Of a stretch of DNA of 64,000 bases, positions 49,873 through 55,988 are shown piece after piece. The translations under genes and the position numbers were made by a program. The stretch lies in assembly GCF_004116495.1 (NCBI RefSeq), contig NZ_PDKC01000007.1:1-64000 (forward strand), written 5' to 3'. The notes under the pieces are model-generated. The model made no database searches. It was not told where the DNA came from and was given only the letters and a program-made list of their open reading frames with translations. Numbering within the stretch: position 1 is the first letter of the stretch; each line of letters begins with the position of its first letter. This DNA comes from Arcobacter sp. CECT 8985. Its GTDB lineage: Bacteria > Campylobacterota > Campylobacteria > Campylobacterales > Arcobacteraceae.

Positions 49873-51207
49873 ATGTTATATAGAGTGTTTATATTGTTTT
49901 TTCTTATTGTTGAAAGTCTTTTTTCTCAAGAGAATAAACAAATAGTAGATTTAACACATCTATATAAAAAAGCATTGGAACAAAACTTCACTATAATTGT
50001 AAAAAATAACAACATAATAATAAACAACAAACAAAAATTTTCTATAAACAAAGATAAATCAGAGTGTATAATAGGTTTGTATTGTCAAGGCAATTACAAC
50101 TCAATGTTAGTTTTAGAACAACTTGTAAAAAGACATTATAAAGAATCAAAAACTAAAAAGAATAAATTATTATTGGATATGTTTTATGAAAATAAAGCTA
50201 AAAAGTTAGATGCTGTACTTTTATTTCAATTATCACTAATATATTTTGATACTTTAAAATTACAAAAAAACAAAGATTTATTACAAGAAAGAATCTATCT
50301 TATAAAAGATAATATGAAAATATCTAAAAAAAGAGAAAAAAGTGGAATAAAACAAGATAAAGATTTAAAAAAGTGGAATGTTGAATTAAAAAATGTAAAA
50401 AATGATCTATTAAAAGTAAAAGAAAAAATTCTTAAAAATAAAACTAGTCTATCCTATCTTACAAATAGCAATATAAAAAACAAAAAATTAAAAGATTATT
50501 TCATTGATAGTGAAGAGTTTAAGATACTAAATGAAACTATTGCTTTTTATATAAATAATAAAGAAAAATTTGATTCTATTAGTTCAAAATTGTCAAATGA
50601 AATTATACAAAATGATAAAGAAATTAAGATATTAAACTCTTTAATTGAACATAAATCAAAAGTAGTAAAAAAAAGTAATAAATATGAAAAACAATTAAAA
50701 GAAAAAAGTCAAAAGAATATACAAGAAGGTAAAAACCTAACAAAAGAGCATAAACCATGGAGTAGTGAGAAATTTGATAAAATTATTCAAGAAAAGCTTT
50801 CTGTTTATATGAATGCAAAAATAACAAATAAGACAGTACAAAATAAATCAGAACTTCAAAACTTGATATATACTTTGTCAAATAAAAAAATAAAAATAAA
50901 AAAGAAAATATATGATATTTTAAAAAAAGTTTTATCTTCATATAAAACAATTAATAATACCTACATATCAAGTATTACAACTAGAAATAATTTTATAGGA
51001 ATAAAGAAGTTATATGACAGATCAAAAATTGATATGAAAGTTTTACTTGATTCTCAAAATAGTATGATAATTTCAAATCAAAATAGATATAGTTCAATAT
51101 ATGATTATTTGGAAAATATTTTGATGCTATATTATGATGCAGGAAGTTTAAATATTATTTATGATAAAAATGAAAAATCTAAGTTTGAAACTAAGATTTT
51201 TCGTTAG
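49873..51207 (+). CDS. Divergent TolC-like exported coiled-coil protein
   Basis: A 444-residue protein with a signal peptide (about 1-19). The start of the mature protein (IVDLTHLYKKALEQNFTI) and the end (KVLLDSQNSMIISNQNRYSSIYDYLENILMLYYDAGSL) resemble the helices of outer-membrane efflux proteins. In between lies very Lys/Asn-rich helical sequence with no convincing barrel strands, and a long charged segment (about 250-310). It may be a degenerate or specialised TolC relative. No pump or adaptor gene adjoins it. It converges on an EamA transporter gene and overlaps its end by 17 bases. Confidence 0.6.
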   Translation: MLYRVFILFFLIVESLFSQENKQIVDLTHLYKKALEQNFTIIVKNNNIIINNKQKFSINKDKSECIIGLYCQGNYNSMLVLEQLVKRHYKESKTKKNKLLLDMFYENKAKKLDAVLLFQLSLIYFDTLKLQKNKDLLQERIYLIKDNMKISKKREKSGIKQDKDLKKWNVELKNVKNDLLKVKEKILKNKTSLSYLTNSNIKNKKLKDYFIDSEEFKILNETIAFYINNKEKFDSISSKLSNEIIQNDKEIKILNSLIEHKSKVVKKSNKYEKQLKEKSQKNIQEGKNLTKEHKPWSSEKFDKIIQEKLSVYMNAKITNKTVQNKSELQNLIYTLSNKKIKIKKKIYDILKKVLSSYKTINNTYISSITTRNNFIGIKKLYDRSKIDMKVLLDSQNSMIISNQNRYSSIYDYLENILMLYYDAGSLNIIYDKNEKSKFETKIFR

Positions 51208-52102
51208 TTAATTGCTTTTTTTTGAAAATTTTAATATTGTTTAATATCTTTACTGCAAATAAAGTCATGATTGTTCCTATAACAATCGATGGGCTGATTT
51301 CTTCTTTTAAAAATATTGCACTAAATGAAATGGCAAACACTGGAACTAAAAATATAAAAGTACTTACTTCATTTGCTCCTAGTTTTTCAATACCAATAAA
51401 ATATATTGTTGTTGCAAAAGTTGTAGAAATAACAGAAACAATAAACATATTAATCCAAAATACTGAATCAAAACTACTAAAATTAATAGCAGAAAAATCT
51501 ACAAAAAATACTGCAGCTATTATAGACATAATAACATACATATAAAATGAAAATACCATTGGAGAAGTATTTGTACTTTTAGAACTAACAATAGTAACCA
51601 ATGCCCAAAGTAATGAACCACATAAAAAGTATAAGTTATGAGCAGTAAATACCTCTTGCATATTAAATGTCCAAACATGAAGTATAGTAAGTACTCCAAA
51701 TCCTCCGATTATCAATGCAAATACATCTTTTTTCTGTATTTTTCTTTTATAAAATAGTGCCATTAATATAAAAGTATTTATTGGTATTAGAGTTGTTACT
51801 AATGCTCCACCTAAACTTGCAGTACCATATTTTGTTCCAAGAAAGTAGCATTTCATATATGCAATCATTAAAATAGAAGCAATGATACATAATATAAGAC
51901 TTTTTTTACTAATATAAAAATACTTTTTATAATATACTAAAATAGGTGCTAAAGTAATAATAGTAAAAAAGTTTCTAAAAACAATCATTTCGTATTCATT
52001 TATATATGAACTAAGAACCTTTGCATTAACCCAAGATGCTCCCCATCCAGACATTGCAAGTATCATTAATATATAAAATATATTTTTATTTTTTTGTGTC
52101 AT
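51191..52102 (-). CDS. EamA/DMT-superfamily transporter
   Basis: A 303-residue protein with ten hydrophobic segments in two homologous halves of five. EamA features include the GWGASWVNAKVLSSYINEYEMIVFRNFFTI start, the TKYGTASLGGALVTTLIPI end of the first half, and IEKLGANEVSTFIFLVPVFA in the second half. Likely an exporter of metabolites or amino acids; the substrate is unknown. It lies 49 bases downstream of the Zur-like gene on the same strand, so a link with zinc control is possible but unproven. Confidence 0.88.
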   Translation of the reverse strand: MTQKNKNIFYILMILAMSGWGASWVNAKVLSSYINEYEMIVFRNFFTIITLAPILVYYKKYFYISKKSLILCIIASILMIAYMKCYFLGTKYGTASLGGALVTTLIPINTFILMALFYKRKIQKKDVFALIIGGFGVLTILHVWTFNMQEVFTAHNLYFLCGSLLWALVTIVSSKSTNTSPMVFSFYMYVIMSIIAAVFFVDFSAINFSSFDSVFWINMFIVSVISTTFATTIYFIGIEKLGANEVSTFIFLVPVFAISFSAIFLKEEISPSIVIGTIMTLFAVKILNNIKIFKKKQLTNEKS

Positions 52103-52151: not shown

Positions 52152-52520
52152 TTATTTATTTAGACAGTTAGAACAGATTCCTTTGATAATTATATTATCA
52201 ATTTTGTGATTTGGAATTTTAAAATCCATTTTTTCTGGAATACACTCTATTGCTGAGCATTTTGTACAAATGAAATGTGCATGGGGATTGTTTTGTATTT
52301 CATAGTATCTTTTCTTATCATTTGATTCGAAACTATTTACAATTCCTTCTTCTTCAAATTTTGTGATATTTCTATAAAATGTTGCTTTATCCATTGATAA
52401 ACTATTTTTTATATCATCATAACACAGAGGTTTACTAGAATTATTAAATATCTCTAAGATTGCTCTTCTAGCAGTTGTAAGTTTTAAATTTTTATTATCT
52501 ACTAATTTTTCTATATTCAT
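52152..52520 (-). CDS. Fur-family regulator, probably Zur
   Basis: A 122-residue winged-helix regulator. The DNA-binding half contains LTTARRAILEIF and KATFYRNITKFEEEGIV. The dimer half has structural zinc cysteines C85-x2-C88 and C116-x2-C119 and a metal-sensing His cluster (NPHAHFIC). It is short for Fur (about 140-155). It diverges from a ZnuA-like gene, and the shared promoter region has two matching palindromes. On these grounds it is called Zur rather than Fur or PerR; sequence alone does not settle the metal. Confidence 0.82.
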   Translation of the reverse strand: MNIEKLVDNKNLKLTTARRAILEIFNNSSKPLCYDDIKNSLSMDKATFYRNITKFEEEGIVNSFESNDKKRYYEIQNNPHAHFICTKCSAIECIPEKMDFKIPNHKIDNIIIKGICSNCLNK

Positions 52521-52563: not shown

Positions 52564-52580
52564 TTGCGACTAAGTTGCAA
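52564..52580. promoter_or_regulatory. Palindromic operator 1 (probable Zur site)
   Basis: TTGCGACT-A-AGTTGCAA is a near-perfect palindrome with one mismatch, in the divergent region between the Fur-family gene and znuA. It lies just upstream of the TATAAT at 52592-52597. It shares the pattern TTGCnAnnnnGTTGCA with the second site. Confidence 0.65.
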
Positions 52581-52610
52581 TAAAGAAACTATATAATAAA
52601 ATTTCAAAAA

Positions 52611-52625
52611 TGCAACACGATTGCA
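52611..52625. promoter_or_regulatory. Palindromic operator 2 (probable Zur site)
   Basis: TGCAA-CACGA-TTGCA is an inverted repeat whose reverse complement reads TTGCAATCGTGTTGCA with its flank, matching site 1 at TTGC, the A, and GTTGCA. It lies just after the expected transcription start of znuA, where a repressor would block it. Confidence 0.65.
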
Positions 52626-52644
52626 AAAAAAATAGGAGAATTTA

Positions 52645-53553
52645 ATGAAAAAACTTTTTATTTTACTTCTTGCATTTAGTACTTTTGTACTTGCAAAAGA
52701 GGTTACTGTAAGTATTATTCCACAAAAATATTTTGTAGAAAAAATTGCAAAAGATAAAATATCAGTAAATGTTATGGTTAGACCAGGTTTTGAACCTGCA
52801 ACGTACGAACCAAAATCATCTCAAATGAGAAAACTTTCTAATTCAGATGCATATTTTGCTATTGGAGTACCATTTGAAAAAGTATGGTTAGAAAAATTTA
52901 AAAATGCAAATAAAAATCTTTTAATTGTAAATACTCAAGATGGTATAACTAAAATAAAAATGGCTGCACATCATCACCATGATGCAGATCATGAAGAACA
53001 CGAAGACCATGACCATGATGCAGATCATGAAGAGCATGAAGATCACGATGCACATGAACATACAGGATTGGATCCACATATTTGGTTAGATCCATTACTT
53101 GTTAAAGTACAAGCAAAAAATATTTATAAAACACTTGTAAAAATTGATGCAAAAAATAAAGATTTTTATAGAAAAAATTATGAAAATTTTATTTTGGAAA
53201 TTGATTCACTTTATTTAAAAATCAAAAATATTCTTAAACCTGTAAAAGGTAAAGCATTTATGGTATTTCATCCTGCTTGGGGATATTTTGCAAAAAGATT
53301 TGATTTACAACAAATTCCTATTGAAGTTGAAGGTAAAAACCCAAAACCAAGTCAATTAGCTCATTTGATTGATGAGGCAAAAGAACATAATATAAAAGTT
53401 GTATTTGTTGCACCTGAGTTTTCTCAAAAAAGTGCTAAAATAATTGCAAAAAGTATTAATGGTGTTGCTATACCAATGAGTCCTTTACATGAAGATTGGG
53501 AAAAATCTCTAATTAATACTGCTAAACAAATTGTTGATTCATATAAAAAATAA
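52645..53553 (+). CDS. znuA: ZnuA-like zinc-binding periplasmic protein with His-rich loop
   Basis: A 302-residue metal-binding protein of the cluster A-I family (ZnuA/TroA type). A signal peptide (about 1-17) precedes VSIIPQKYFVEKIAKD. The His-rich loop (about 108-143) is made of a tandem 12-residue repeat (HDADHEEHEDHD twice). Next come the metal-site blocks GLDPHIWLDP, VFHPAWGYFAKRF and a late Glu/Asp region. The loop and the divergent Zur-like gene argue for zinc. No ZnuB permease or ZnuC ATPase lies nearby; the next gene, starting at its stop codon, is a NicO-type permease. Confidence 0.88.
   Translation: MKKLFILLLAFSTFVLAKEVTVSIIPQKYFVEKIAKDKISVNVMVRPGFEPATYEPKSSQMRKLSNSDAYFAIGVPFEKVWLEKFKNANKNLLIVNTQDGITKIKMAAHHHHDADHEEHEDHDHDADHEEHEDHDAHEHTGLDPHIWLDPLLVKVQAKNIYKTLVKIDAKNKDFYRKNYENFILEIDSLYLKIKNILKPVKGKAFMVFHPAWGYFAKRFDLQQIPIEVEGKNPKPSQLAHLIDEAKEHNIKVVFVAPEFSQKSAKIIAKSINGVAIPMSPLHEDWEKSLINTAKQIVDSYKK
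52978..53049 (+). repeat. Tandem 36-bp repeat in the His-rich loop of znuA
   Basis: Two adjacent 36-bp units (52978-53013 and 53014-53049) encode the same 12 residues, HDADHEEHEDHD, with a few silent differences. Duplication of this unit lengthened the metal-binding loop, and copy number may vary among strains. Confidence 0.85.
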
Positions 53554-55016
53554 TGATAAAAAAATTACTTTTATTTCTCTTTTTGTTCACAAGCATAGCC
53601 TTTGGTTGTGCTTTGTGTGCTATTTATTCTCCTGATACAAAAGTTTCTATTAAAGTAAATTCAACAGATACAAAAATTACTTCATTGGATATAAAATGGG
53701 TAATTACAAAAGATTTTACAAATCAATTAAAACAAGTATATGATACAAACTTAGATAATAAGATAGATAAAGATGAATTAAAATTTGTCAAAAAAGCTCT
53801 TATTGATTATGCTAAATACAAAAATTATATGACTAGTATTTCATATGGTGAAATTATTAACAAAGAAAAATCTGATAACTTTACTGTTACTAAACAAAGA
53901 GTTGACATAGAAAATGGTTTTTTACATTTTTTCTATACAATAAATGTTGATTATGATATAAAAAATGACTATAGTTTGTATGTTCACTTAAATGATGATG
54001 AAAACTATTTTGCTTTATTACTCGAAAATGATTTTATATCATTTAGAAATAAAGCTAAAATATCAAAAATTACAGATAAACAAAGTGTTATATTTTTGAT
54101 AAATAATGCTCATATTCCTAAGAAAATAGAAAAAGAAAAAAAAGAAGAAAAAGAAAAAATTGTTCAAGAAAAAAAAGAGGTTGTAAAAAAGAGTAATACT
54201 CAAGTACAAAATTCATCTTTACAGTTCTCACTTCTTAAAAAATTTGTAGAAAAAGTAAAAAAATATCTTTTAGAAGTACAAAAAGGGAATAGTTTTGCTT
54301 TATTTACTTTGCTTTTTGTTTCATTTCTTTATGGTGTCATTCATGCACTTGGCCCAGGTCATGGGAAAACATTAGCATTTTCATATTTTAGTACGAAAAA
54401 AAGTAGTTATAAAAAAGCATTTGGAATTTCACTTGCTTCGTCGTTTCTTCATATCATAGGTGCTTTGATTTTAGTTTGTATTTCTGTATTTATTTTAGAA
54501 ACAGTATTAAGCAATTTTGTAAAAGATACAGTGAAAATATTAACACAAATTTCAGCTGTTATGATTATGCTTTTAGCTTTTTATATATTTTTGCAAAAAA
54601 TGAATAATAAAGGATGTGGTTGTAGCTCATGTAGTTCTACTAATCAACAAGGAATTACTTGGAATAATACAAATAGTATTAATTTAAAAAACAATGATAA
54701 TATTGATTTTAAAAAAGTAAATAAAAAAAGAAGTGATTTATACTTTATCTTAACAGCAGGACTCATTCCTTGTCCTGGAACTGTCATACTTTTTATTTAT
54801 GCATTTATATTAAAAACATATTTTGCAGTATTGTTAGCTTCTGTGGCAATTAGTTTTGGTATGGCTGTTGTAATATTTGCAAGTTCATTTTTAGGAGTTA
54901 GCTTACATAAAATAAGTTCAAAATCTCATAAACTTACTAATATCTTAGAAATTGGATCACCAATTGTTATGTTTATATTAGGTCTATTATTGCTATTTAG
55001 CTCAAATAGCTTATAA
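53553..55016 (+). CDS. Fused ZevA-ZevB-like (DUF1007 plus NicO-family) metal transporter
   Basis: A 487-residue protein. After a signal segment (about 1-18) comes a DUF1007-like periplasmic domain (about 28-190) with an EF-hand-like run D64-E75 (DTNLDNKIDKDE). A Lys/Glu coiled linker (about 192-225) leads to a NicO/RcnA-type membrane domain of six or so helices (about 245-487). That domain carries HALGPGHGKT (264-273) and a Cys-rich loop GCGCSSC. In Haemophilus, ZevA (DUF1007) and ZevB (NicO) are separate proteins needed for zinc uptake; here both are one chain. It is translationally coupled to the ZnuA-like gene behind the palindromes. Zinc is the likely substrate, and export or nickel/cobalt cannot be excluded. 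Confidence 0.8.
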   Translation: MIKKLLLFLFLFTSIAFGCALCAIYSPDTKVSIKVNSTDTKITSLDIKWVITKDFTNQLKQVYDTNLDNKIDKDELKFVKKALIDYAKYKNYMTSISYGEIINKEKSDNFTVTKQRVDIENGFLHFFYTINVDYDIKNDYSLYVHLNDDENYFALLLENDFISFRNKAKISKITDKQSVIFLINNAHIPKKIEKEKKEEKEKIVQEKKEVVKKSNTQVQNSSLQFSLLKKFVEKVKKYLLEVQKGNSFALFTLLFVSFLYGVIHALGPGHGKTLAFSYFSTKKSSYKKAFGISLASSFLHIIGALILVCISVFILETVLSNFVKDTVKILTQISAVMIMLLAFYIFLQKMNNKGCGCSSCSSTNQQGITWNNTNSINLKNNDNIDFKKVNKKRSDLYFILTAGLIPCPGTVILFIYAFILKTYFAVLLASVAISFGMAVVIFASSFLGVSLHKISSKSHKLTNILEIGSPIVMFILGLLLLFSSNSL

Positions 55017-55045
55017 GATTAGAAGTCTTTCTTCTAATCTTTTAC
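55015..55045 (+). terminator. Terminator of the znuA operon
   Basis: An 11-bp perfect stem (AAGATTAGAAG and CTTCTAATCTT) with loop TCTTT is followed by TT and AT-rich sequence. It begins at the stop codon of the fusion gene, so the znuA unit is only two genes long. Confidence 0.8.
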
Positions 55046-55112: not shown

Positions 55113-55988
55113 ATGTACAAAAACTTACCTACTGTTGCTTTTTGGCTAATAGGAATAATCTGGGGATCAAATTTTATATATATGAAATGGGCAAGTGAGT
55201 ACCTTAGTGCTTCTCAAGTTGTTTTTATTCGAGTTCTTTTTGGATTTATTCCTGTTTTTTGTTATGCTTTGTATTTAAAAGTCATAAAAGTAGAACACTT
55301 TAAATATGCAATACATTTTTTTATTATGTCTTTACTTGGAACAACAGTTTATTACTATTTCTTTGTAAAAGCAGCAGCACTTTTATTATCTGGAGTAAAT
55401 GGAGCATTAAGTGGTTCAATACCCCTTTTTACTTTTATTTTATCAATTATATTTATAAATGAAGAAAGAGCAACATTTCGTAGATTTTTGGGTATAATTG
55501 TGGGGTTATTAGGAGTTATTTTAATAGCTAAGCCATTTGATGCAAATCTATTACAAACAAATATAAATGGAGTTATTTATATAGTGACTGGCTCATTAAT
55601 TTTAGGCATGTCTTTTGTATATGCAAAAAAGTTTATAAGTAGATTAAAAATACATTTTGCTGCACTTACAACTTATCAGTTAGGTTTTGCACTGCTAGTT
55701 TTAACAATAATTACTGATTTTAGTAATATTTCTAATATATTAAATAATACACATGTATTTCTTGGAGCTGTATTTGGTCTTGGATTATTAGGAACAGGAT
55801 TAGCTTTTATTTTATACTATTATTTAGTAGAAAAACTAGGTGCGGTTAATGCCTCAACTGCTACTTATATACCCCCTGTTGTAGCACTTTTTATCGGATA
55901 TTTTTTCATCGGTGAAAATATTACATTAGTAGATATATTAGCCACAATGCTTATATTCTCAGGTGTATTCCTAATAAATAAAAAATAA
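55113..55988 (+). CDS. EamA/DMT-superfamily transporter
   Basis: A 291-residue, ten-helix protein. The typical first helix reads FWLIGIIWGSNFIYMKWASEYLSASQVVFIRVLFG. The end of the first half has LLSGVNGALSGSIPLFTFILSIIF, and the second half ends KLGAVNASTATYIPPVVALFIGYFFIGE. Probably an exporter of amino acids or other metabolites. The following MATE gene starts 15 bases later, so the two exporters may be co-transcribed. Confidence 0.9.
   Translation: MYKNLPTVAFWLIGIIWGSNFIYMKWASEYLSASQVVFIRVLFGFIPVFCYALYLKVIKVEHFKYAIHFFIMSLLGTTVYYYFFVKAAALLLSGVNGALSGSIPLFTFILSIIFINEERATFRRFLGIIVGLLGVILIAKPFDANLLQTNINGVIYIVTGSLILGMSFVYAKKFISRLKIHFAALTTYQLGFALLVLTIITDFSNISNILNNTHVFLGAVFGLGLLGTGLAFILYYYLVEKLGAVNASTATYIPPVVALFIGYFFIGENITLVDILATMLIFSGVFLINKK

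Follow-up and report, generated by a model that had tools for sequence, protein, structure and literature searches.

A zinc locus of Arcobacter sp. CECT 8985 encodes a ZnuA-type solute-binding protein next to a NicO-type permease, which raises the question of how zinc is imported when no ABC permease or ATPase is encoded beside them. A sequence-only reading of the locus proposed that ZnuA operates without ZnuBC and feeds the non-ABC permease. The analysis described here covers the window, a stretch of 64,000 nucleotides of contig NZ_PDKC01000007.1, together with the rest of the genome and related Campylobacterota, and it points to a different answer. The locus is likely part of a split Zur-type ZnuABC regulon that is equipped with a fused ZevAB-type accessory protein, and not a non-ABC route.

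Organization of the zinc locus

The divergent Fur-family gene, the two palindromes, the duplicated His-rich loop, the overlap, the fusion and the terminator that had been described earlier are all present in the window, and are arranged as follows.

52520..52152, minus strand: Fur-family regulator gene, called Zur by context (122 aa; PF01475 (FUR), 61 bits)
52564..52580, strand not applicable: operator 1, TTGCGACTAAGTTGCAA, presumed Zur box (pattern match)
52610..52626, strand not applicable: operator 2, ATGCAACACGATTGCAA, presumed Zur box, 18 bp upstream of the znuA start
52645..53553, plus strand: znuA, encoding a 302-aa zinc-binding solute-binding protein of the ABC type (PF01297, E=4e-66)
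52798..52800, plus strand: Ala52 codon, replacing the first zinc-ligand His of ZnuA (alignments)
52969..53061, plus strand: His/Asp/Glu-rich ZnuA loop, in which the unit DADHEEHEDHD is duplicated (sequence)
53551-53555, plus strand: TAATG stop/start overlap between znuA and the fusion gene (sequence)
53553..55016, plus strand: DUF1007-NicO (ZevA-ZevB-like) fusion, 487 aa (NicO, E=2e-19)
53607..53618, plus strand: codons for the CALC motif, whose C19 and C22 are invariant, located where the mature N-terminus is expected (two alignments)
53634..54104, plus strand: periplasmic DUF1007-like domain with an EF-hand-like loop (AlphaFold2 model, conservation)
54117..54227, plus strand: charged disordered linker, residues 189-225 (pLDDT <50)
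54228..55007, plus strand: NicO-type membrane domain of the fusion (Pfam, alignments, AlphaFold2 model)
55015..55041, plus strand: terminator-like hairpin after the fusion gene (sequence)

ORFs that by eye resemble EamA/DMT transporters lie on either side of the zinc unit (51191-52102 and 55113-55988).

The regulator and a candidate Zur box

The Fur-family regulator carries two C-terminal CxxC motifs, and its gene is divergent from znuA in most relatives. No NCBIfam equivalog, the Zur family models included, recognizes the protein above its cut-off, and the general Pfam FUR model alone passes. From its context we infer that the regulator is zinc-responsive, that is, of the Zur type.

As in a Zur regulon, a common operator lies before the zinc-uptake genes. 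In a pattern scan of the 2.79-Mb genome, TTGCRAYNNNRTTGCA has exact matches only at 52564-52580 and 52610-52626, and on another contig (C15) the sequence TTGCAACTTAGTCGCA, located 19 bp upstream of znuC, is the exact reverse complement of window positions 52565-52580. The palindrome between zur and znuA recurs across the order, in most of the Campylobacterales loci compared, and this recurrence, together with the uniqueness of the pattern in the genome, rules out a chance origin. The box is also present upstream of the orphan znuC in all six genomes of the same genus, in genus codes g2, g60 and g67, and in most of the g69 genomes checked. It is absent before the orphan znuCB in the nine genomes of genus code g9 that were checked, therefore the co-regulation is not universal. 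In g9 (L275-L280, L289, L290), the znuA-fusion pair retains its Zur box.

Pattern matching across the source genome also places Zur-box-like palindromes upstream of the genes for GTP cyclohydrolase II (L014:3174, contig C27), the outer-membrane protein HP_OMP_2 (L013:5013, contig C22) and a TonB-dependent receptor (L016:780, contig C17), which would fit as candidate members of a zinc-starvation regulon. The literature hits consulted describe no Zur box of Campylobacterota. Operator conservation and gene context support the Zur-type arrangement of the Fur-family gene, the palindromes and znuA that had been proposed from the sequence.

ZnuBC is encoded elsewhere in the genome

The proposed lack of ZnuBC holds for the window locus and fails for the genome as a whole. 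The ABC-3 profile has one strong match, znuB on contig C15 (E=2.8e-71), where znuC (244 aa) and znuB (272 aa) overlap and znuA is not adjacent, hence the permease and the ATPase of a ZnuABC system are both present in this genome and a genome without ZnuBC is ruled out. Each of the six genomes of the genus encodes a single ZnuB and two proteins of the ZnuA family, and ZnuB is present in 97 of the 104 Arcobacteraceae genomes.

The second ZnuA-family protein of the source genome (262 aa, contig C1, L004:1432-2220) is encoded beside aspS and lacks the His-rich loop as well as all three zinc-ligand His residues, and it is therefore unlikely to be the true partner of ZnuCB for zinc. Short, low-scoring paralogues of the ZnuA family are common in many Arcobacteraceae. 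The window ZnuA is alone in this genome in retaining zinc-ligand His, and because there is a single ZnuB for it to serve, it most likely works with the distant ZnuBC. A distant, Zur-controlled znuBC using this ZnuA had been foreseen as an objection to a non-ABC route; the genes and their identical box are indeed there, and their use of this ZnuA is the most probable arrangement.

A ZevA-ZevB-like protein in one chain

The partner of ZnuA resembles ZevAB of Haemophilus influenzae in its DUF1007 periplasmic domain, its NicO permease and its zinc-uptake context, a likeness drawn from domain content and gene context. In contrast to the two separate Haemophilus proteins, here one 487-aa chain with a charged linker carries both domains as well as the cysteine motifs CALC and CxCxxC, and it is encoded beside Zur-linked znu genes. 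The DUF1007 match of the window protein by itself is sub-threshold (E=0.034); among its relatives the domain is found in 33 of 40 at E<=0.01 (best 4e-16) and NicO in 40 of 40, and the protein is conserved with ZnuA across genera, which bears out the one-chain architecture suggested earlier. None of the papers in the literature collection searched treats DUF1007 and NicO together.

The AlphaFold2 model predicts a confident periplasmic alpha/beta domain (residues 28-184), followed by the disordered charged linker (189-225) and a membrane domain (226-485), and also contains a disordered cysteine loop. Invariant or nearly invariant positions in the alignments include C19, C22, D64 and E75, and in the NicO-type membrane domain H264, H270, H300, the CxCxxC loop (355-360) and PCPG (406-409). 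Within the EF-hand-like loop (residues 64-75), D64 and E75 are invariant in the second alignment, and C19 could be a lipid-modified or metal-binding cysteine. A fold search with the model against the PDB gave no match at E<=0.001; the weak resemblance to ZrgA of Vibrio cholerae (8ezw, TM by target 0.50, E 0.18) is not significant. Similarly, a profile of the fusion matched mostly EF-hand-type stretches among PDB sequences and no convincing solved structure.

The missing zinc ligand of ZnuA

By its PF01297 match the window protein is a ZnuA-type solute-binding protein, and its best solved relative is Synechocystis ZnuA (1pq4, E=2.5e-73). Alignments reveal PATYEP where ZnuA proteins have PHTYEP, so that of the three His zinc ligands the first is replaced by Ala52, and H145 and H209 are retained. 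The first ligand (His60 in E. coli ZnuA) has been described as absolutely conserved, and the S. enterica protein is reported to be able to use a His from its flexible loop instead (PMC8900738). As judged from the alignments, the ligand that has been called absolutely conserved has been lost in this lineage.

A first survey found the His retained in 48 of 49 ZnuA proteins that are encoded in one locus with znuB. In the lone exception (L115), the ZnuA adjoins a fusion, and znuCB in that locus is accompanied by another ZnuA, which is of the His type. In a set of 109 ZnuA from Arcobacteraceae, Ala or Thr occupies the first-ligand position in 41, including a G372 copy that is full length with an unclear start codon, and all 41 adjoin a fusion. 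In contrast, 41 ZnuA have no fusion next to them; they comprise 38 with His, two with Glu and one with Asn, and these last three rows are the only ones in which the His is lost and no fusion adjoins. Whole-genome searches of nine genomes without an adjacent fusion found no fusion elsewhere in them either.

A ZnuA tree, built with the ligand column and its neighbouring columns excluded, places one loss of the His at the base of the family clade, followed by a return to His in the nested genus code g2 (Aliarcobacter-type). Monophyly of the His-less rows was rejected (AU test, p=0.005). The tree suggests that the first-ligand His was probably regained after its loss, in step with the presence of the partner protein. 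Six losses of the fusion are reconstructed, five on His branches, one on the Glu branch, where either the ligand change or the fusion loss may have come first, and none on the Ala/Thr branches. The latter account for 64% of the branch length, and the probability that six losses would avoid them is about 0.002, a post hoc figure. An independent-pairs test of ligand against fusion in the Arcobacteraceae ZnuA did not reach significance, given how rarely the ligand has changed, and the association is suggestive rather than proven. The fusion gene is interrupted in Arcobacter cryaerophilus-type genomes (L121:6001-7463; G187:C32:46522-47969) and absent in several relatives that retain znuA and znuCB.

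That Ala/Thr ZnuA always have a fusion as their neighbour, and that losses of the fusion are confined to His and Glu lineages, suggests that a His-less ZnuA may depend on the fusion. A stronger form, in which the His-less ZnuA and the membrane-tethered ZevA-like domain make up an obligate two-protein zinc relay toward ZnuBC or the NicO channel, with that domain as the donor or acceptor of the zinc, is conceivable, although we consider it rather doubtful.

Genomic companions of the fusion and alternative explanations

Matches to the fusion query occur in 102 of 298 Campylobacterota genomes and in 20 of 58 genera, with some lone NicO proteins included. Both ZnuA and ABC-3 permease matches are found in 55 of 56 selected genomes, and the remaining one has neither. 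Of 80 fusion loci fetched from the named genome collection, 62 contain znuA, and 34 of these carry a complete znuABC; across Campylobacterota, znu genes are the regular company of the fusion. Downstream of a divergent zur, the gene order is znuA-fusion-znuC-znuB in Campylobacter (C. concisus, C. portucalensis), znuA-znuC-znuB-fusion in the Sulfurimonas type, and znuA-fusion with znuCB elsewhere in Arcobacteraceae. The window shows the Arcobacteraceae version, from which znuCB has moved out, and the nearest named relative is Malaciobacter halophilus. In five Sulfurospirillum-type loci (L133, L138, L156, L166, L168), the fusion adjoins a separate lone NicO protein and no znu genes occur in the fetched stretch; this fusion perhaps has a different metal or role.

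These varying gene orders, together with the 18 of 80 loci that lack znuA, would also suit a fusion that acts as a parallel ZevAB-like importer, co-regulated with ZnuABC and without any contact with ZnuA. In Haemophilus, ZevAB forms a system apart from ZnuABC, according to work cited in PMC10563805. This is a sub-case of the split regulon, whose probability overlaps with that of the latter, and we regard it as a reasonable possibility that falls short of being probable: it leaves unexplained both why the His-less ZnuA has the fusion as its constant neighbour and why the six fusion losses fall on His/Glu lineages.

A more radical alternative is that ZnuA delivers zinc straight to the NicO-type fusion, with ZnuBC being irrelevant or served by another binding protein. 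The tight coupling of znuA and fusion in Arcobacteraceae, the adjoining fusion of every Ala/Thr ZnuA, the unboxed orphan znuCB of g9, and the presence in some Arcobacteraceae genomes of another complete znuABC, whose ZnuA is of the ordinary His type, all speak for it. However, the znuCB of the source genome retains the identical operator, its single ZnuB has no other ZnuA with ligand His to draw on, and the same fusion clusters with complete znuABC in many relatives (34 loci). The original proposal of a ZnuA that feeds a non-ABC permease without ZnuBC thus finds no support, and a direct route of this kind is improbable. Since loss of the ligand His occurs almost only beside the fusion, a working coupling between ZnuA and the fusion is possible beside the ABC route.

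Equally improbable is a fusion that exports competing nickel or cobalt upon zinc starvation, and thereby prevents mis-metallation of zinc sites: the NicO family includes RcnA-type efflux proteins and the best NCBIfam match, far below its cut-off, is to a nickel/cobalt efflux transporter, but the fusion sits with zinc-uptake genes and has a ZevA-like DUF1007 domain.

A model for the probable split regulon

In the preferred reading, the split ZnuABC regulon, the Zur-type repressor would leave its TTGCRACnnnGTTGCAA operators at low zinc. ZnuA and the one-chain ZevAB-type protein would then be made from the window locus, and ZnuC and ZnuB from the other contig under the same operator. ZnuA would act as the solute-binding protein of ZnuBC, and the fusion as a co-induced, membrane-anchored zinc-handling partner, the periplasmic DUF1007 domain of which may bind zinc and either pass it through the NicO channel of the fusion, the route proposed for ZevAB, or deliver it to ZnuA. 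The ZnuA of this lineage has lost its first ligand His and may since have come to rely on the fusion. The gene content, the common operator, the co-conservation, the ligand loss and the ligand-fusion association of this model can be read from sequence comparison. Its other elements are inferences: the zinc response of the regulator, the service of ZnuA to the distant ZnuBC, import as the direction of transport by the fusion, its metal and the handover to ZnuA.

The system shares the ZnuA, ZnuB and ZnuC families, and the operators before both transcription units, with ZnuABC/Zur of E. coli and Synechocystis. It differs in that the genes lie at two loci and an extra fusion protein is present, ZnuA lacks its first ligand His, and Zur is assigned by context. 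The window pair has only the idea of a handover, as proposed here, in common with AztD-AztC of Paracoccus, in which a periplasmic protein passes zinc to a zinc solute-binding protein (PMC6689063).

Significance

To conclude, these comparisons place a fused ZevAB-type protein in what is presumably the zinc-starvation response of a phylum to which Campylobacter and Aliarcobacter belong, and provide an order-wide palindrome as a candidate Zur box. Furthermore, they describe a ZnuA ligand that has been lost, and probably regained, alongside the presence of a partner protein. The roles of ZevAB and of the His-rich loop of ZnuA thereby become directly testable.
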